Shown piece after piece: positions 22,785 to 44,712 of a stretch of DNA of 64,000 nt. The stretch lies in the NCBI GenBank assembly GCA_001513155.1, contig LFSR01000022.1, forward strand, positions 1-64,000. Reading direction: 5' to 3'. The position numbers were made by a program, and so were the translations under genes. Below the pieces are notes generated by a model, which was not told where the DNA came from, ran no database searches, and saw only the letters and a list, made by a program, of their open reading frames with translations. Every line of letters begins with the position of its first letter. Position 1 is the first letter of the stretch. The stretch is from Syntrophomonas sp. DTU018 (lineage in GTDB: Bacteria > Bacillota > Syntrophomonadia > Syntrophomonadales > Syntrophomonadaceae).

Positions 22785-23018
22785 TATTTGGTGATGATCA
22801 GGAGAGTAAGCCTGGTTATACTGTAACAGAGAGTTCGGGTAGGTGGAAACCGGGCACAGGAACCGGGCTGAAAATCACCTGGGAACCTTCTGGTCGAAAG
22901 CGTTCCATTAGTAGACCAGAACGTTACTCGCGTTAAGAGTAAGAGCGGCATGAAAATGCTATTAGGGTGGTACCGCGGAAGCAGTCCTTTCGTCCCTTGG
23001 TGGAGGAAAGGTTTTTTT
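22785..23018 (+). promoter_or_regulatory. T-box riboswitch of ileS
   Basis: A tRNA-sensing leader. The T-box core AGGGTGGTACCGCGG is at 22964-22978. A terminator follows at 22986-23018, with CCTTTC pairing with GAAAGG and then seven T residues. Stem I covers about 22790-22900; CTGAAAATCACC at 22869-22880 carries the probable specifier ATC (22874-22876), an isoleucine codon that agrees with the downstream gene. Uncharged tRNA-Ile would stabilise the antiterminator and allow ileS transcription. Confidence 0.92.
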
Positions 23019-29457: not shown

Positions 29458-30861
29458 ATGCAGGTAATTCGTAGAGTTATGGCCATTGCTGCCGCCAAAC
29501 TGCTTATTTGTCTGAGCAGGCTTTTCGGCTATCATGGGACCGACTTTCCCGGGCGGGTAGCCCGGAAAATTGATCCGGATATCTTAAAAAAACTGGGAGC
29601 CAATGTACAGGAAGAGATTTTCATTATTACTGGCACCAACGGGAAAACCACTACCACCAATATGATTGCCCGCATACTGGAGGAAAAAGGTTATTCCTTT
29701 GTTCATAACCGGGCCGGCGCCAATATGGTTACCGGCATTACCACCGCTTTTATAAAAGAATCCAACCTGCTGGGTAATCGACCTTATGAATATGCTTTGC
29801 TGGAAACCGACGAAGCCAATGTTCCTTTATTGTTAAAAGAGCTCACTCCCCGGGTCGTATTGATAACCAACTTTTTCCGGGACCAGTTGGACCGATACGG
29901 TGAATTGGACCGGATCATCTCCCTTATAAAAGATGCCGTTCGGAACACTGATATTGAATTGGTATTAAATGCAGATGATCCCCTGGTGGTTCATTTCCAG
30001 AATGATACTGGACTGCACTGCTGGTATTATGGTTTTGATGATACCGATTATGATCTATTTCAGGGTGAAGAAAGCCGGGAAGGACGGTTTTGTGCCTTCT
30101 GCGGGGAGGAACTCCAGTATGAGCGCTTTCATTACGCTCAGCTGGGCAAATTTAATTGTCCCAGATGCGGAAGCCGCAACCCCCGGCGCAATTTTACCGG
30201 GCACGATCTGCGCATGACTCCGCAGATTCACTTTTTCGTAAACAATATTGAAATACACAGCCCTTATTTAGGCTTTTACAATGCCTATAACATTCTGGCA
30301 GCGGTAGCAGTAGCCAAACTGGTGGGCATTCAAGATGAGATTGTCCAGCGGGCCATTGCCAGTTACCAGCCCCGGGCGGGTCGTATGGAACAGTTTCTAA
30401 TCGGAGACAAGAAAGCTATACAAATCCTGGTCAAGAATCCTACCGGCCTAAACCAAACCCTGGCCGCCCTGAATACTGACCCCGCCAGTAAGAGCCTGTT
30501 TTTTGCCTTAAATGACAATGCCGCCGACGGGAGAGATGTTTCCTGGATATGGGATGCTCAGATAGAAAATATTGCCCACCCGTCCGCGGCCATAAAAGGC
30601 ATTACCTGTTCCGGCTTGCGCAGCGGAGATGCAGCTTTGCGCTTCAAGTACGCTGGCTTTAATGAGGGAATAATAACGGTGGAGTCTGATTTGGAAGCAG
30701 GAATCAAAGCCTGTCTGGATATGGAGGCAGAAGTATATTATTTTCTGTGTACTTATACCACCTTGTTTGCCAGCCGCAAAATCCTGTCCCGGCTAGCCAG
30801 GAAAACAACTCGTCCCCGGCCTAAATACAACCTTGCCCAACCGGCAGCAGGAGGTGAATAA
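29458..30861 (+). CDS. murT: Lipid II isoglutaminyl synthase subunit MurT
   Basis: The ATP-dependent ligase subunit that, with GatD, amidates the D-glutamate of lipid II to D-isoglutamine. The 467-residue protein has the Mur-ligase P-loop TGTNGKTTTTNMIARIL (about residues 58-74) and LETDEANVP. It has the MurT-specific zinc ribbon CAFCGEEL and CPRCGSRNPRRN, and a C-terminal DUF1727 domain (VKNPTGLNQTL, LNDNAADGRDVSWIWD). It acts on the cytoplasmic face. gatD follows immediately, with its ribosome site inside the murT end. Confidence 0.95.
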   Translation: MQVIRRVMAIAAAKLLICLSRLFGYHGTDFPGRVARKIDPDILKKLGANVQEEIFIITGTNGKTTTTNMIARILEEKGYSFVHNRAGANMVTGITTAFIKESNLLGNRPYEYALLETDEANVPLLLKELTPRVVLITNFFRDQLDRYGELDRIISLIKDAVRNTDIELVLNADDPLVVHFQNDTGLHCWYYGFDDTDYDLFQGEESREGRFCAFCGEELQYERFHYAQLGKFNCPRCGSRNPRRNFTGHDLRMTPQIHFFVNNIEIHSPYLGFYNAYNILAAVAVAKLVGIQDEIVQRAIASYQPRAGRMEQFLIGDKKAIQILVKNPTGLNQTLAALNTDPASKSLFFALNDNAADGRDVSWIWDAQIENIAHPSAAIKGITCSGLRSGDAALRFKYAGFNEGIITVESDLEAGIKACLDMEAEVYYFLCTYTTLFASRKILSRLARKTTRPRPKYNLAQPAAGGE

Positions 30862-30862
30862 A

Positions 30863-31597
30863 ATGGCCACCTTTTGCATTGCTCACCTTTATCCTGATTT
30901 GATGAACCTGTATGGTGACCGGGGCAACCTGATCTGCTTACAGAAAAGGCTGCAATGGTACGGGCATGACTGCCTGGTACAGCCCGTTAACTTGAGCAGC
31001 GAAGTAGATTACAGTACTTTTGACATGATCTTTATGGGAGGAGGCTCAGACCGGGAACAGGGACTGGTTTACCGGGATCTGCTGCGCAGAGCCGATCAAT
31101 TATGGAAACAATTGGATGCCGGACTTCCGGCTTTGTTTATATGCGGAGCTTACCAACTGCTGGGTACTCATTATGAATCCGCGGACGGCAAACAGCTTAA
31201 GGGATTGGGGTTTTTTAATCTCTGTACCCGGAGTGAGAAGGAGCGCTTAATCGGCAACATTGTCCTGGCCTGCCGGATTAACCAGCAGATAATTACCGTC
31301 GTGGGTTTTGAAAACCATGGCGGGAGAACTTACCTGGAGGACAAATCTCTGGAGCCTTTTGGCATGGTTCTGGCTGGTTTTGGCAACAATGGTGAAGACG
31401 GTCAGGAGGGAGTCCGTTACAAAAACCTGATCGGAACTTACCTGCATGGTCCGCTGTTGCCCAAGAATCCGGCTGTGGCTGATTATTTTATCCATATGAT
31501 GGCTGCCCGCAAGGGGATAGAGATTACAGGTACATTAAACGACCGACTGGAAGATTTTGCCCACCAGCAGATAAAAAGACGGATCCTGGGCAGTTAA
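30863..31597 (+). CDS. gatD: Lipid II isoglutaminyl synthase glutaminase subunit GatD
   Basis: The glutamine amidotransferase partner of MurT, 244 residues. Cys94 in LFICGAYQLLG is the nucleophile and His195 in GTYLHGPLLPKNP the base; these match Cys94 and His189 of staphylococcal GatD in order. The start at ATG 30863 follows a perfect AGGAGGTGA, one base after the murT stop codon. Intact catalytic residues here contrast with the CarA glutaminase later in the window. Confidence 0.95.
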   Translation: MATFCIAHLYPDLMNLYGDRGNLICLQKRLQWYGHDCLVQPVNLSSEVDYSTFDMIFMGGGSDREQGLVYRDLLRRADQLWKQLDAGLPALFICGAYQLLGTHYESADGKQLKGLGFFNLCTRSEKERLIGNIVLACRINQQIITVVGFENHGGRTYLEDKSLEPFGMVLAGFGNNGEDGQEGVRYKNLIGTYLHGPLLPKNPAVADYFIHMMAARKGIEITGTLNDRLEDFAHQQIKRRILGS

Positions 31598-34524: not shown

Positions 34525-35192
<668 letters not shown>

Positions 35193-35193
35193 C

Positions 35194-35281
35194 CCTTTAA
35201 TCTGGTCCCGAGAGGCCAGCAAGGGAGAAGCGTTAAGAACAGGGCTTAAGCCTTCCTTGCTGTGCCAAGGAAGGTTTTTTT
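35194..35281 (+). promoter_or_regulatory. PyrR-dependent attenuator 2 (pyrR-pyrB)
   Basis: CTTTAATCTGGTCCCGAGAGGC at 35195-35216 matches the PyrR-loop consensus closely. The terminator follows: CCTTCCTTG (35251-35259) and CAAGGAAGG (35266-35274), then seven T residues. AAGGGAGAAGCG just after the loop can pair with the left side of the terminator stem as antiterminator. It begins two bases after the pyrR stop. Confidence 0.92.
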
Positions 35282-35302
35282 ATGGAAGGAGGCTAACAGC
35301 CA

Positions 35303-36235
35303 ATGCAACGCAAGGATTTGCTGGGATTGTATGATCTTAGCCGGGAAGAGATTGAACTAATTCTGAACACCGCACAGCCCATGAAGGATATTATCCAGCG
35401 GGATATTAAAAAGGTGCCTACCTTGCGCGGAAAAGCCCTGGTAACCGTTTTTTATGAGAACAGTACCCGCACCCGCACTTCCTTTGAAATTGCCGGGAAA
35501 TACCTGAGCGCAGACACCGTCAACCTGGGTGTTTCCACCAGCAGCGTGCAGAAGGGAGAGAGCCTGCGGGATACGATCAAAACCCTGGAGGTAATGGGTT
35601 TTGATGTGATGATAATACGTCATTCCATGAGCGGGACTCCCCACTATATAGCCCGCAACACCAAAATGTCGGTAATCAATGCCGGTGACGGCACCAACGA
35701 GCATCCCACCCAGGCATTGCTGGATCTTTTCACCATTCGGGAGCACAAGGGACACCTGGATGGGCTGAAAGTAGCCATTGTGGGGGATATTCTCCACAGC
35801 CGGGTAGCCCGTTCCAACATATACGGATTAAAGAAATTTGGCTGCGAGGTACGGGTAGTAGGTCCTGCCACCCTGCTTCCTCCGGGTTTGGACCGTTTGG
35901 GTGTGAAATGGTATTACAGTTTGGAGGAAGCCCTGCAGGGAGTAGATGTAATTAATGTCCTGCGCATTCAAAGAGAACGCCAGCAAGTAGGTTTCTTCCC
36001 GTCCCTGGATGAATATGCCAATCTCTACATGCTCAGACCTGAACACCTGCACCTGGCCAAAAAAGATGTGCTGGTTCTCCACCCTGGCCCTATGAACCGG
36101 GGAGTAGAAATATCCAGTCAGATTGCCGACGGAGTGCAGGCAGTGATAAATGAACAGGTTACCAATGGAGTAGCGGTAAGAATGGCCATACTGTATCTCA
36201 TGATGGGAGGCATAAGAGATGAAATTGCTGGTTAA
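35303..36235 (+). CDS. pyrB: Aspartate carbamoyltransferase
   Basis: It condenses carbamoyl phosphate with aspartate to carbamoyl-aspartate. In the 310-residue catalytic chain, [12 protein letters not shown] (51-62) binds carbamoyl phosphate, HPTQALLDL binds both substrates and [12 protein letters not shown] is the late signature. No regulatory pyrI follows, so feedback works through PyrR rather than allostery. It overlaps pyrC by 17 bases. Confidence 0.97.
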
Positions 36236-37502
36236 GGGAGGACGAGTGATAGACCCGGCCAGCGGCATGGACCAGCTGGCGGATGTGCTCATTCAAGATG
36301 GCAAAGTGATGGGCATTGACCGGAACATATCCATTGATGAAGGAGAAATGCTGGATGCCAGCGGGAAATTGGTATGCCCTGGCTTTATTGATATTCATGT
36401 CCACCTGCGGGAACCGGGCTTTGAATACAAAGAAGACATAGCTACGGGGACCAGAGCCGCTGCCGCTGGAGGCTTTGCCACCATATGCTGTATGCCCAAT
36501 ACCGACCCGGTAATTGACAATGCAGCGGTAACCAGTTTTGTCCGGGAACGCTCTCGCAAAGCAGGAGTGGTGAATGTGTTGCCCATCGGTGCTGTCACCC
36601 GCCGGCAGGAAGGCAACGAACTGGCGGAAATTGCTGAAATGGTAGCAGCAGGATGTGTAGCTATTTCCGACGATGGCCGGCCGGTTATGAGAGCGGACAT
36701 AATGCGCTATGCCCTGGAATATTCCAAGATGTTTCAAATACCAGTAATGTCCCATTGTGAGGATCTTCACTTAAGCAAAGGCGGCCAGATGCATGAAGGT
36801 TTCTTCTCCACTATTTACGGCTTGAAAGGCATACCGGCGGAGGCAGAGGAAGTTATGGTCGCCCGGGATTTGCTTTTGGCCAAATTGACCGGAGCACATC
36901 TCCACCTGTGTCATGTGTCAACAGCCGGCTCTATTCAAATGATCAAAAGAGCCAAAAGCGAAGGAGTACACGTGACCTGTGAAGTAACCCCCCATCATCT
37001 TACCCTTACTGATGAAATCGTAGGGTCCTATGATACTGATACCAAGGTCAATCCTCCTCTCCGCTCCCAGGAACACCTGGAAACGTTGTGGAAAGCTTTG
37101 AAGGATGGCACTATTGATTGCATTGCTACTGATCATGCTCCCCACCACTTTGAAAGCAAGGACTGCGAGTATGAATTGGCAGCATCGGGAATCTCGGGAT
37201 TGGAAACAGCCGTACCGGTAGTAATGAGCCTGGTTCACAAGGGGATATTGGATCTTAAAACCATGGTCGAAAAAATGAGCCTGGGACCTGCCCGGGTACT
37301 GGGCCTGGATCGCGGCCGGCTAGAGGTGGGAGCAATAGCTGATTTGACCATTATCGATCCGGAAGCGGTGCGTACAGTTGATCCGGCCAAATTTTATTCC
37401 CAGGGGAAAAACACTCCCTTTAAGGGATTAGAATATAAGGGATGGCCATATGCCACTATAGTTGCAGGCAAAATCGTAGCTCGCGACGGCATTATTGCAT
37501 AA
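36219..37502 (+). CDS. pyrC: Dihydroorotase
   Basis: Cyclises carbamoyl-aspartate to dihydroorotate. A 427-residue class I (amidohydrolase-fold) enzyme. The metal motif HVHLREPG begins at His60, and later blocks are [34 protein letters not shown] and ATDHAPHH, which supply the remaining ligands and the catalytic Asp. It starts inside the end of pyrB. Confidence 0.97.
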
Positions 37503-37516
37503 AGAAGGTGTGACAA

Positions 37517-38587
37517 ATGAAAGGATATTTGGTGTTGGAAAACGGCCGTATATTTGAAGGCAAACTCCTGAATGACTGCCGCCTGGCCGATGGCGAGGTA
37601 GTATTCAGCACAGCTATGGTCAGTTATCAGGATATAATCACCGACCCTTCCTATTACGGCCAGATTGTAGTAATGACTTATCCCTTGATCGGCAATGTAG
37701 GCTTCAATGAAAAGAGTTTTGCCTCCCGTGACGCTATGGTCAAGGGACTGATATTAAGAGAGGCTACTGATTTTCCCAGCCACTATGAGATGGAAACAGA
37801 CCTGATCAGTTTTCTCAACAAAAGTGAAATTGCGGTTTTGACAGAAGTGGACACCAGAGCGGTAACTCGTCTCATACGTTCCCAGGGAGTAATGGGAGGA
37901 GTAATAACTGACAATCTTGACCATAAAGAATGGCTGATCACCAAAGCTGCCAGAGCATCCAAAAATCTGCAGGGTGATTTGGTGCAGTATGTTACCCGGC
38001 GCAATACAATGGTATTCGGTCACGGGGAAGGCAAAAAAAGAGTGGTGTTGCTGGATCTGGGGACCAAACGGGGAGTTATTAACTCCTTTGTCCGGCGCGG
38101 GTGTGAAGTGGTGGCGGTTCCTGCCGACACTCAAGCCTGGGAAATCAAAAACTTGTCTCCCCAGGGAGTATATATTTCCGACGGTCCCGGTGATCCCCAG
38201 GCAATACCTGCCGTGATTATAGAATGCCAGTCACTGCTGGGGGAATTCCCCTTGTTCGGTGTAGGACTGGGACACCAAATACTGGCTCTGGCCCTGGGAG
38301 GCAAGACCTACCGCCTGGAATGCGGGCACCGCGGAACCAATCATCCGGTCCGCAGCATGGATAACAACCGCATCTATATTACCACTCAAAATCATAGCTA
38401 TGCTATTGATGAGGATTCCTTACCCGCTACCGGATTAGAGGTAACCATGCGCAGCTTGCATGATAACTCGGTGGAAGCGGTTCGTCACCGATCCCTGCCG
38501 GTGTTTTCCGTTCAGTTTGATCCGGAAAGTTACCCGGGTTACAGCGAAACAGGCTTTTTTTATGATCAGTTTATCGCCCAGCTGTAG
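37517..38587 (+). CDS. carA: Carbamoyl-phosphate synthase small subunit with a broken glutaminase triad
   Basis: The glutaminase subunit of carbamoyl-phosphate synthase, 356 residues. The N-terminal CPSase domain (GYLVLENGRIFEG, TAMVSYQDIITDPSY) and the GATase-like fold (SDGPGDP, GLGHQILALALGGKTYRL) are complete. However, the nucleophile Cys of the usual G-(I/V)-C-LGHQ is Gly250 (GTA GGA CTG GGA CAC), and the catalytic His of QYHPE is Asp335 (QFDPES); Glu337 is kept. The glutaminase should therefore be inactive and the complex should use NH3. No frame damage is present and carB follows, so this looks like a kept protein, not a decaying gene. It may serve as a structural cap for CarB. Confidence 0.93.
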   Translation: MKGYLVLENGRIFEGKLLNDCRLADGEVVFSTAMVSYQDIITDPSYYGQIVVMTYPLIGNVGFNEKSFASRDAMVKGLILREATDFPSHYEMETDLISFLNKSEIAVLTEVDTRAVTRLIRSQGVMGGVITDNLDHKEWLITKAARASKNLQGDLVQYVTRRNTMVFGHGEGKKRVVLLDLGTKRGVINSFVRRGCEVVAVPADTQAWEIKNLSPQGVYISDGPGDPQAIPAVIIECQSLLGEFPLFGVGLGHQILALALGGKTYRLECGHRGTNHPVRSMDNNRIYITTQNHSYAIDEDSLPATGLEVTMRSLHDNSVEAVRHRSLPVFSVQFDPESYPGYSETGFFYDQFIAQL

Positions 38588-41600: not shown

Positions 41601-41824
41601 ATCTTATCCGGGAAGGCAAGGTTGATTTCTGTATTAACACCTTAACTCACGGGCGGCGTATTTTCTCTGATGGGTTCCAGATTCGCCGGGCGGCAGTGGA
41701 ACTTAACATACCATGCTTAACCTCTTTAGATACGGTAAGGGTAATCCAGCAAGTAGTCCAGGAAGGAGATTACCTGGATTCAAATCCGGTAAAATCCCTG
41801 CAGGAATATGTGCAAGGCCGCTGA
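38612..41824 (+). CDS. carB: Carbamoyl-phosphate synthase large subunit
   Basis: The synthetase subunit, 1070 residues, with two homologous ATP-grasp halves. The first half ([24 protein letters not shown]-grasp about 128-320) makes carboxyphosphate and carbamate. The second ([20 protein letters not shown]; about 670-860) phosphorylates carbamate. An oligomerisation segment lies between and an MGS-like regulatory domain ends the protein (from about residue 935, [17 protein letters not shown]). Conserved metal/ATP sites such as [20 protein letters not shown] and [15 protein letters not shown] are intact. It follows carA by 24 bases. With CarA impaired, this subunit would take ammonia directly. 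Confidence 0.97.
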
Positions 41825-41838
41825 AAGGAGGGGAATAT

Positions 41839-42636
41839 ATGCCCTGTATAGAGAGGGCTCAGGTTATCAGCAACAGCCAGGTAAGCAGCGACCTGTTTGA
41901 AATGGAATTGAAAGCTCCCCAAATTGTGCCCTTGTGCAAACCGGGGCAGTTCATTCACCTGCGGGTCAGCAGCCAGTACGATCCCTTGCTGCGCAGACCT
42001 TTAAGTCTTTACGATGTTGACCGTCAACAGAATACGATTACCTTGCTTTATAAGGTAGTTGGCAAAGGGACCGAGATTTTGTCCCGGACTAAGTCTGGGG
42101 AATATCTGGATATAATGGGGCCCCTGGGCCGGGCTTTCAGCTGGCCACAGCCAGGACAAAGCGCCCTGCTGGTGGGGGGAGGGGTGGGAATTGCTCCCCT
42201 GCTGTTTCTGACCCGGGAATTGCTGGAACAAGGGTACAAGGTTAAGGTTTTGTATGGAGCCCAAAGCAGTCAAGATTTGGCGGCCTTGAACAGGTTCCGC
42301 AGGCTTGGAGCAGAAGTGTGGCCGGCGACTATGGATGGAAAAACCGGATACCCGGGATTGGTAACCGATCTGCTAAAAGAGCAGCTTTCTATTCAAAAAA
42401 CCGGAGATTGGTTCATATATACCTGCGGGCCCGAGCCCATGATGGCCCAAGTAGCCGCATATGCCCATGAATATGGTCTGAAAGGGGAAGTATCCCTGGA
42501 AGAGAATATGGCCTGCGGTGTAGGGGCCTGTCTGGGATGTGCCCGTCAACTGAAATCTAGTGATAAGAGTTATGTAAAAGTATGCAAGGACGGCCCGGTG
42601 TTTGCCTTGCAGGAAGTGGAGCTGAATCCATCATAA
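41839..42636 (+). CDS. pyrK: Dihydroorotate dehydrogenase electron-transfer subunit PyrK
   Basis: An FAD/[2Fe-2S] protein of 265 residues that passes electrons from dihydroorotate dehydrogenase to NAD+. RRPLSLYDVD binds FAD, LVGGGVGIAPLLFL and YTCGPEPMM bind NAD(H), and Cys226, 231, 234 and 249 ligate the cluster. The ATG at 41839 follows AAGGAGGGG; an open frame extends upstream into carB but lacks a ribosome site. It forms the class 1B heterotetramer with PyrD. The gap before pyrD contains a structured repeat. Confidence 0.95.
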   Translation: MPCIERAQVISNSQVSSDLFEMELKAPQIVPLCKPGQFIHLRVSSQYDPLLRRPLSLYDVDRQQNTITLLYKVVGKGTEILSRTKSGEYLDIMGPLGRAFSWPQPGQSALLVGGGVGIAPLLFLTRELLEQGYKVKVLYGAQSSQDLAALNRFRRLGAEVWPATMDGKTGYPGLVTDLLKEQLSIQKTGDWFIYTCGPEPMMAQVAAYAHEYGLKGEVSLEENMACGVGACLGCARQLKSSDKSYVKVCKDGPVFALQEVELNPS

Positions 42637-42703: not shown

Positions 42704-42901
42704 GTATTAGCCGGCTCGCTCCGGTACTCCTCGCCTGCAACCCATCGGCAAACTTTAAGTGCGAAGGGGACCGCTCGTAATTCGGCATCCATGCACTCAG
42801 TACTCGCTGCTCGAAACGTCCTGTTTCTCGCTCCCCTTCGCAGCCCTCAGTTTCACCGTGGGTTGCAATGGCTCGTCGTAAGTCACTCGCCCGGCTAATA
42901 C
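42704..42901 (+). repeat. 198-bp structured repeat element, copy 1
   Basis: An intergenic element between pyrK and pyrD with perfect 11-bp terminal inverted repeats, GTATTAGCCGG and CCGGCTAATAC. Two internal stems are visible: TGCAACCCA (42736-42744) with TGGGTTGCA (42859-42867), and TGCGAAGGGGA (42760-42770) with TCCCCTTCGCA (42832-42842). About 80 percent of it recurs inverted at 47496-47690. In that copy both stems carry base changes that keep pairing. No coding frame is credible. It could be a MITE-like element, a structured RNA, or an mRNA processing or stability element within the pyr transcript. Confidence 0.85.
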
Positions 42902-42941
42902 CCCTGATTAGGCCGAGCAGCGATCTTTGCATTCATCGAGG

Positions 42942-42966
42942 CCCGCATTTCAGGAATAATTGCGGG
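42942..42966 (+). promoter_or_regulatory. Short hairpin before pyrD
   Basis: CCCGCA (42942-42947) pairs with TGCGGG (42961-42966) around a 13-base loop, 30 bases before the pyrD start. No T run follows. Confidence 0.35.
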
Positions 42967-42996
42967 GAAATTAATTACCAGAAAGGGAAAGATGGT

Positions 42997-43932
42997 ATGA
43001 CTGACAAATCCCAACCGGCAAACCATGTTGATATGACAGTAAACCTGGGCGGGTTGCAATTGAAGAATCCGGTCTGCACAGCTTCAGGTACTTTCGGTTA
43101 CGGCCTGGAATATGAAGAATATTTTGACCCTGCTGTTCTGGGGGCAGTTATTGTAAAAGGAACTACTCTGGAACCGCGCCCTGGCAATCCGCCAACCCGT
43201 ATTATTGAGACTCCTGCTGGGATGCTAAATGCCATAGGTCTGGAGAATCCAGGAGTAGATGTTTTTATTGAGCAATACATGCCTGAGTTGCGCAAACGGG
43301 GAGTTACTGTAGTGGCCAATATAGCTGGAAATACCGTGGATGAATATGCTGAGCTGGCCCGGCGTCTGGATGCAGTAGAAGGTATCGGAGCCCTGGAACT
43401 GAACATTTCCTGTCCCAATGTAGCTAAAGGGGGACTCCAATTCGGTACCGATCCTGACATGGTTTATCAGGTAGTATACGAGGTAAGGCAGAATACTAAG
43501 CTGCCGGTTATTCCCAAACTCAGTCCCAACGTTACAGATATAGTGGTCATAGCTCAAGCCGCCCAGTCAGGCGGGGCGGACGCTTTGTCCATGATCAATA
43601 CTTTAATGGGTATGGCTGTAGATATTGAGCGGCGTAAACCCGTCCTGGCCAATGTTTTTGGCGGTTTGTCAGGACCAGCCATCAAGCCGGTAGCCCTGCG
43701 CATGATCTACCAGGTTTACCAGCAGGTAAAACTGCCCATCCTGGGCGGAGGGGGAATTGTTTCTGCCCGTGATGCTCTTGAGTTTATGATGGCGGGTGCT
43801 TCCGCAGTATCCATAGGAACCGGCATTTTTGTGGACCCTTATTTACCCTGCCAGGTAATCGAAGGCTTGCAGGAATATGCCAGGCAACATGGTATAACCA
43901 GAATTACTGATCTGGTGGGGATAGCCCATTAG
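42997..43932 (+). CDS. pyrD: Dihydroorotate dehydrogenase, catalytic subunit (class 1B)
   Basis: FMN enzyme that oxidises dihydroorotate to orotate, working with PyrK. 311 residues; [13 protein letters not shown] near residue 25, [10 protein letters not shown], and [11 protein letters not shown] with Cys139 as the class 1B active-site base; [20 protein letters not shown] binds phosphate of FMN. ATG 42997 is preferred to an upstream frame that runs into the repeat element. Class 1B agrees with the presence of pyrK and with anaerobic growth using NAD+. Confidence 0.95.
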
Positions 43933-43995: not shown

Positions 43996-44712
43996 GTGAA
44001 GCCTAAAGAACGCATTATTCTGGCCCTGGATGTAGACAGCGAAGCCCGCGCCCTGGAACTGGTGGAGAAGTTGGCTGATTCAGTAGGGGCTTTTAAGGTA
44101 GGTATGCAGCTTTATAACCAGGTGGGGCCTGGCATTGTCCGGCAAATTCAGGATTTAGGCGGACGTGTATTTGTGGACTTAAAGTTCCACGATATACCCA
44201 ATACCGTAGCTGGTGCAGCCAGGGTTATGACCGGATTGAACTGTTTCATGTTCAATGTGCACTCTTCCGGAGGGCGGGATATGATGACCGCCGCTATGAA
44301 AGCTGTCCAGGAAGAGTCGGCCCGGTTGGGTTGTGCACCGCCCCTGGTTTTGGCGGTTACCGTATTAACCAGCATTTCTGAACAGCAATTACATGATGAA
44401 ATGTATATCAGCCGCAGTATGGAACAGACAGTGATGGGCTGGGCCCAAATGGCCAAAGAATGCGGATTGAACGGAGTGGTCTGCTCACCTCAGGAAATCG
44501 AACCCATTCGCAGGGCATGTGGATCTGATTTTGTTATTGTTACCCCGGGAATACGGCCCCTCTGGTCGGAAAAGAATGACCAGAAGCGTATCACTACCCC
44601 CCGGGAGGCACTGCGGTTAGGAGCAGACTATATGGTAATCGGCAGACCGATTACCGCAGCCCCCGATCCCCGGGAAGCTGCTCTAAGAATTATTGAAGAA
44701 TTGGAGGAATAA
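43996..44712 (+). CDS. pyrF: Orotidine 5'-phosphate decarboxylase
   Basis: Converts OMP to UMP. A 238-residue TIM barrel: ILALDVDSEARALELV at the N-terminus, VFVDLKFHDIPNTV with the Asp-Lys-Asp catalytic set, GVVCSPQEI, VTPGIRP and YMVIGRPIT as phosphate sites. GAAGGAGG precedes the GTG start. pyrE follows after three bases. Confidence 0.96.
   Translation: MKPKERIILALDVDSEARALELVEKLADSVGAFKVGMQLYNQVGPGIVRQIQDLGGRVFVDLKFHDIPNTVAGAARVMTGLNCFMFNVHSSGGRDMMTAAMKAVQEESARLGCAPPLVLAVTVLTSISEQQLHDEMYISRSMEQTVMGWAQMAKECGLNGVVCSPQEIEPIRRACGSDFVIVTPGIRPLWSEKNDQKRITTPREALRLGADYMVIGRPITAAPDPREAALRIIEELEE

Follow-up and report, generated by a model that had tools for sequence, protein, structure and literature searches.

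The small subunit CarA of carbamoyl-phosphate synthetase (CPS) encoded in the pyrimidine (pyr) operon of Syntrophomonadaceae, a family of fatty-acid-degrading anaerobes, has most probably (probability roughly 0.8) become a pseudo-glutaminase, and the CarAB enzyme would then work on free ammonia, with a possible exchange for an intact CarA in those species that encode one. The gene under study lies in a 64,000-nucleotide stretch of a Syntrophomonas genome, referred to here as the window. Published reviews name glutamine as the donor of nitrogen for bacterial CPSases (PMC6245113) and for every CPS other than CPS1 (PMC4655335). The Syntrophomonadaceae, including the model syntroph Syntrophomonas wolfei, appear to be a natural exception to this rule, reached independently of vertebrates, and a bacterial CPS obliged to use ammonia is the best reading of their pyr-operon genes.

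Loss of the glutaminase triad in a pyr-operon CarA

The window CarA scores 397 bits against TIGR01368 in a profile search (cut-off 307), and residue equivalences were taken from a 264-bit alignment with the PDB chains of E. coli CarA. The nucleophile site reads GVGLGHQ and the His site QFDPES. The codon positions (Table 1) agree exactly with the first-pass annotation of this DNA, which had read Cys to Gly250 and His to Asp335 with Glu337 kept, and the alignment adds changes beyond these, namely Asp222 in place of Asn240 and aromatic residues at E. coli positions 357 and 360. The Cys-His-Glu triad of TIGR01368 is represented by Gly250, Asp335 and Glu337, and the G-x-C-x-G nucleophile elbow of functional class I glutamine amidotransferases is absent, the window CarA having GVGLG. 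Judged by sequence, it is a homologue of the TIGR01368 family and not a glutamine-hydrolysing member of it, and it carries the inactive glutaminase remnant of a CPS I-type enzyme; the fused chain of CPS I is absent, the small and large subunits being separate genes here. The automatic label 'glutamine-hydrolyzing' is wrong for dead CarAs of this kind. The loss is specific to CarA, as had been proposed from GatD, since GuaA, PyrG and GatD of the same genome all keep their Cys: GatD (30797-31594) has the Cys (CGAYQ) and the GFENH motif, and GuaA and PyrG, encoded elsewhere in the genome, retain both Cys and His. An AlphaFold model of the dead CarA had a mean pLDDT of 67 with a poor N-domain and was left unused.

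The gene order around the dead carA is pyrR-pyrB-pyrC-carA-carB-pyrK-pyrD-pyrF. The normal flanks described earlier, pyrC before and carB after, are in place. The start of carB lies 25 bases downstream of carA, the adjacency that goes with TIGR01368, and the dead carA-carB unit is, by prediction, under pyrimidine (PyrR) control. A search for changes in CarB that match the dead CarA gave a few fixed residues, all outside the known catalytic motifs, for which shared ancestry may be explanation enough. A T-box leader (RF00230, 128 bits) is found elsewhere in the window, at 22785-23000.

Table 1. Features of the pyr operon and codons of its CarA (positions in the window; Ec, E. coli CarA)
Feature	Position	Strand	Remarks
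pyrR	34641..35192	+	
PyrR-binding RNA (RF00515) ahead of pyrB	35190..35283	+	57.6 bits, gathering score 54
pyrB	35303..36235	+	
pyrC	36219..37502	+	
carA, glutaminase-dead CPS small subunit	37517..38587	+	ORF 356 aa; TIGR01368 397 bits; dead clade support 100
codon Asp222 (Ec Asn240 of SNGPG)	38180..38182	+	fixed N to D; dead-clade rows uniformly Asp, intact CarAs Asn (41/41)
codon Gly250 (replaces nucleophile Ec Cys269)	38264..38266	+	GGA; alignment
codon Thr274 (Ec Gly293)	38336..38338	+	position of tunnel-blocking Gln318 in human CPS1 (PMC4655335); T/S in 32/34 rows of the dead clade; intact CarAs mostly A/G (36/41)
codon Asp335 (replaces catalytic Ec His353)	38519..38521	+	GAT; alignment
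codon Glu337 (Ec Glu355, third triad member)	38525..38527	+	GAA; kept; alignment
codon Tyr339 (Ec Ser357)	38531..38533	+	aromatic in all dead-clade rows
codon Tyr342 (Ec Pro360)	38540..38542	+	aromatic in all dead-clade rows
carB, sole CPS large subunit of the window's genome	38612..41824	+	both ATP-grasp motifs retained ([20 protein letters not shown])
pyrK	41713..42636	+	true start probably within ORF
pyrD	42868..43932	+	
pyrF	43996..44712	+	

Fixation across the Syntrophomonadaceae

The Cys is absent from all 35 readable pyr-operon CarAs, which come from 35 genomes and 18 Syntrophomonadaceae genera. S. wolfei and Thermosyntropha lipolytica are among the species with a dead CarA, and the close relatives identified by name, all Syntrophomonadaceae, include T. 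lipolytica DSM 11003 and S. wolfei subsp. methylbutyratica; we take genome G023 to be most likely S. wolfei Goettingen and G038 most likely Syntrophothermus lipocalidus. In a tree with the active-site columns masked, the dead CarAs form a single clade (support 100), nested in a Syntrophomonadales clade that also contains intact CarAs. The earlier suggestion of checking whether the Gly/Asp pair is fixed in a clade is thereby answered, with one clade of 18 genera and no Cys. In the larger tree set, Gly269 and Asp240 are present in 41/41 dead-clade rows and Asp353 in 40/41 (Ala in one), and none of 41 intact CarAs has any of the three substitutions.

The dead carA is under strong purifying selection. 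When the window's species is compared with a congener, the dead carA has a dN/dS of 0.040, as against 0.030 in carB and 0.109 in the intact carA. Intact CarAs are better conserved in the glutaminase domain and dead-clade CarAs in the N-terminal domain, with a glutaminase/N-domain divergence ratio of 0.88-0.91 in the former and 1.68 (95% 1.33-2.13) in the latter, a pattern expected if selection no longer acts on glutamine hydrolysis but still acts on the remainder of the protein. Simple decay, already doubted in the first-pass annotation, or a sequencing error in one genome has a negligible chance of accounting for the loss, since 35 independently assembled genomes from 18 genera share these residues and dN/dS is 0.04, and nothing was found in favour of either.

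A second, intact CarA

The first-pass reading had depended on there being no second intact carA in the genome, and in this it fails: an intact CarA (GICLGHQ, QFHPE) is encoded at C34:36711-37760. The idea of an organism without any glutaminase CarA was rejected on this ground, and since the second CarA is encoded, the window organism is probably still capable of using glutamine for CPS. Contamination is an unlikely source of the gene, as the congeners G001 and G003 share the cluster and the CarAs group at support 100.

The intact gene is an orphan in a cluster that reads carA-glnB (PII)-amtB-ANTAR regulator-glnA-glutamate synthase pieces; it contains no carB, and the only CarB of the window's genome sits in the pyr operon. 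Both CarAs, dead and intact, are present in 16 family genomes, and an orphan intact CarA is combined with a single CarB in eight near-complete genomes. In relatives the orphan gene adjoins glnB, amtB, glnA or glutamate-synthase genes. In G067 and G068 the order is carA (intact, orphan lineage)-carB (pyr lineage)-glnB-amtB, and because the two are adjacent there, the orphan CarA lineage and the pyr-operon CarB lineage are seen as natural partners. No convincing ANTAR-type double hairpins were detected before the orphan carA cluster, and the only riboswitch found by Rfam before the orphan carA is a molybdenum riboswitch far upstream. The molybdenum/tungsten riboswitch (RF01055) at L006:3590-3711, upstream of the intact carA cluster, precedes the gene of an ABC transporter whose substrate is probably an oxyanion. 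In genome G031 (locus L063) the N-cluster carA and carB are frameshifted and possibly represent pseudogenes or assembly errors.

Gene content and association with AmtB

Eleven genomes with a completeness of at least 90%, among which are T. lipolytica and the closed genome of S. wolfei, have the dead CarA as their one CarA, together with a single CarB. In a count of 18 genomes, no CarA other than the dead one was found. A carbamate kinase bypass was rejected, with no arcC over the cut-off in the window's genome or in S. wolfei, although G006 has an arcC over the cut-off.

In the 31 genomes of the family with a completeness of at least 90%, AmtB accompanies an intact CarA in 18/18, and both are absent in the other 13/13 (Fisher p = 5e-9, with kinship ignored); G031, in which carA and amtB are both frameshifted, was excluded from this count. 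Both states are found within five genera, all of which agree with the association. Part of the joint loss is due to linkage, because the intact carA and amtB are neighbours in most cases, but linkage is not the whole cause, since the two lie on different contigs in G008, G019, G033 and G040 (the last from the sister family). AmtB matters under ammonium scarcity, and for the species without it, ammonium seems to be plentiful and the dead CarA the only one in use. As intact CarA is linked with AmtB, a testable rule is suggested, by which AmtB-less anaerobes of ammonia-rich habitats would have turned to free ammonia for making carbamoyl phosphate, and a spare glutaminase subunit would be retained by species that meet low ammonium.

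Some pyr operons have no carA: those of G003 (from the window's genus), G008 and G076, and that of G040 in the sister family (at loci L180, L181, L184 and L248 pyrC is followed by carB with no carA in between). The family's carA-less operons occupy three separate places on the CarB tree, so carA was deleted from the pyr operon at least three times. An intact CarA is encoded elsewhere in the genomes of G003, G008 and G040, and the deletions indicate that CarB can manage without the dead CarA, at any rate when an intact one is available. A separate clade of stand-alone CarBs (support 100; L183, L185-L196 and L198, e.g. L188:6000-9245) has no adjoining carA or pyr genes and keeps its catalytic motifs in the one member aligned. 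In the near-complete genomes G018, G037, G039, G045 and G071 this CarB is the only CPS gene found, with no CarA found, and it is perhaps a one-subunit ammonia-dependent CPS.

Remodelling of the former active site and the ammonia path

The fixed differences of the dead clade from intact CarAs are G38S, N240D, C269G, H353D, S357Y/F and P360Y/F; together with the T/S at G293 in 32 of 34 rows, they cluster around the former active site and the ammonia path, with G293, S357 and P360 on the side of the tunnel. P360 is reportedly among the residues removed in the tunnel-perforation mutant of E. coli CPS made by Kim & Raushel 2004. The positions S47, G241, L270, Q273 and N311, which we take to be the glutamine contacts in E. 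coli CarA structures, are invariant or nearly so in the dead clade. In human CPS1 the former tunnel is blocked by Gln318, at the equivalent of G293, and a different entry path has been proposed for external ammonia (PMC4655335); the T/S at this position in the dead clade is smaller than that Gln. E. coli CPS with a blocked or perforated tunnel loses glutamine use and keeps ammonia use (PMC4655335).

Proposed mechanism and alternative readings

With the Cys-His pair and Asn240 replaced family-wide in a gene held by strong purifying selection, established chemistry predicts that no ammonia would be released from glutamine, because there would be no Cys nucleophile and no gamma-glutamyl thioester. 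Dissolved ammonia would reach CarB either straight from solution or past the remodelled tunnel between CarA and CarB, and the first ATP-grasp site of CarB, in which both sites keep their motifs, would make carbamoyl phosphate from it. When ammonium is scarce, nitrogen limitation would raise the intact subunit, which would then take the same CarB in place of the dead CarA and restore glutamine use, and species without AmtB, having no intact CarA, would be left with ammonia only. One CarB would in this way be served by two exchangeable small subunits, a PyrR-controlled dead CarA in ammonia-replete conditions and an active CarA of the PII/AmtB cluster in ammonia-poor ones, and the nitrogen donor of carbamoyl-phosphate synthesis would be switched by subunit exchange; we give this switch even odds.

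The first-pass annotation had held that the CPS of this operon is ammonia-fed. The loss is real, clade-fixed and selected, and ammonia use is its best explanation, especially in the 11 sole-CarA genomes; for the window organism as a whole, complete reliance on ammonia is improbable, given its second intact CarA. The accompanying view of CarA as a structural cap agrees with the conserved N-terminal domain and the relaxed glutaminase domain and is weakened by the three lineages that have deleted the dead carA from the pyr operon, so that a cap supplied in cis can be dispensed with in at least some cases. It also counts against the ammonia mechanism that very high concentrations are needed for ammonia use by E. 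coli CPS (PMC6245113), and that the five glutamine contacts are kept, which a mere cap would not need.

Because these contacts are kept in the Syntrophomonadaceae clade, a glutamine-sensing role is possible, in which the dead CarA would bind glutamine without cleaving it and tune an ammonia-dependent synthase to nitrogen status. Other Cys-less CarAs, found outside the family, have lost S47 in 6/8 cases and E355 in 5/8, and the best PDB match of the dead CarA is 1c30/1c3o, an E. coli CarA that has Ser instead of Cys269. We nevertheless consider sensing unlikely, as Asp353, Asp240 and the aromatics at 357 and 360 alter the pocket and the kept residues may be structural. The deletions raise a different alternative, that the dead CarA is an inactive competitor diluting the glutamine-dependent CPS, with CarB alone equally good with ammonia. 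Its dispensability in at least three lineages that retain CarB and the existence of a separate CarB clade that works without an adjoining carA gene would suit such a role, but it is the sole CarA found in 18 genomes and is constrained like CarB, and a pure competitor would be unneeded there, which makes this proposal improbable. There is very little to be expected from glutaminase activity by some other route, such as general-base hydrolysis by Asp335/Asp222 without Cys: the joint fixation of three substitutions, without drift, would accord with it, but class I amidotransferases require the Cys thioester, and Cys269 and His353 are essential in E. coli CarA (PMC6245113).

Comparison with known CPS systems

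Vertebrate CPS1 resembles the pyr-operon enzyme of Syntrophomonadaceae in its inactive glutaminase remnant after loss of the catalytic Cys, in feeding on free ammonia, as the pyr-operon enzyme most probably does, and in an altered residue at the tunnel site that corresponds to G293 of E. coli (PMC4655335). It is a single fused chain (mitochondrial in human), activated by N-acetylglutamate and serving the urea cycle, with Ser at the Cys position, whereas the Syntrophomonadaceae have separate subunits encoded in a pyrimidine operon, with Cys to Gly, His to Asp and Asn to Asp changes, and in some species an intact alternative small subunit. The ammonia-CPS trait is of independent origin in the two. 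Fold, operon position, an intact CarB and PyrR control are shared with the bacterial glutamine-dependent CPS (CarAB; PyrAA/PyrAB in Bacillus), from which the system described here differs in a dead CarA without the catalytic Cys and His, and in the predicted exclusion of glutamine as nitrogen donor. The Cys269 to Gly and Ser mutants of E. coli CarA made by Rubino 1986 reportedly lose glutamine use and keep ammonia use, and whereas such variants at Cys269 or His353 are laboratory products, here evolution has fixed the equivalent state across a family. Two carA genes per genome are also present in species that encode two complete CPSs, an arginine-type and a pyrimidine-type carAB, but here there are two CarAs and one CarB, and one of the CarAs is catalytically dead. 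A prior report of a Cys-less bacterial CarA was not found in the open-access papers searched. The Syntrophomonadaceae CPS offers a ready system for how external ammonia enters CPS.

Cys-less CarAs outside the family

Eight more Cys-to-Gly CarAs were found outside the family, where the survey beyond the order was pattern-based and incomplete, and they look like independent losses. Seven of them also lack P360, compared with 0/40 intact CarAs. Since 4/8 were retrieved via the Gly pattern itself, the impression that the replacement is always Gly is partly search bias. The 68 genomes across the phylum that match the DNA pattern G-x-G-x-G-H-Q are no count of CarA losses, as many of the matches fall in Obg GTPase or arise by chance in antisense. 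In one Bacillota genome (G051) both CarAs are without the catalytic Cys (L095, GVGLG/HPN; L096, GIGVG/HPE), each beside its own carB. Elsewhere in the phylum, apparently independent Cys-to-Gly CarAs are present at L097, L207, L213, L221, L228 and L068, none of which has Pro at 360, one ending short of it. The CarA at L017 retains its Cys and has Tyr in place of the catalytic His.
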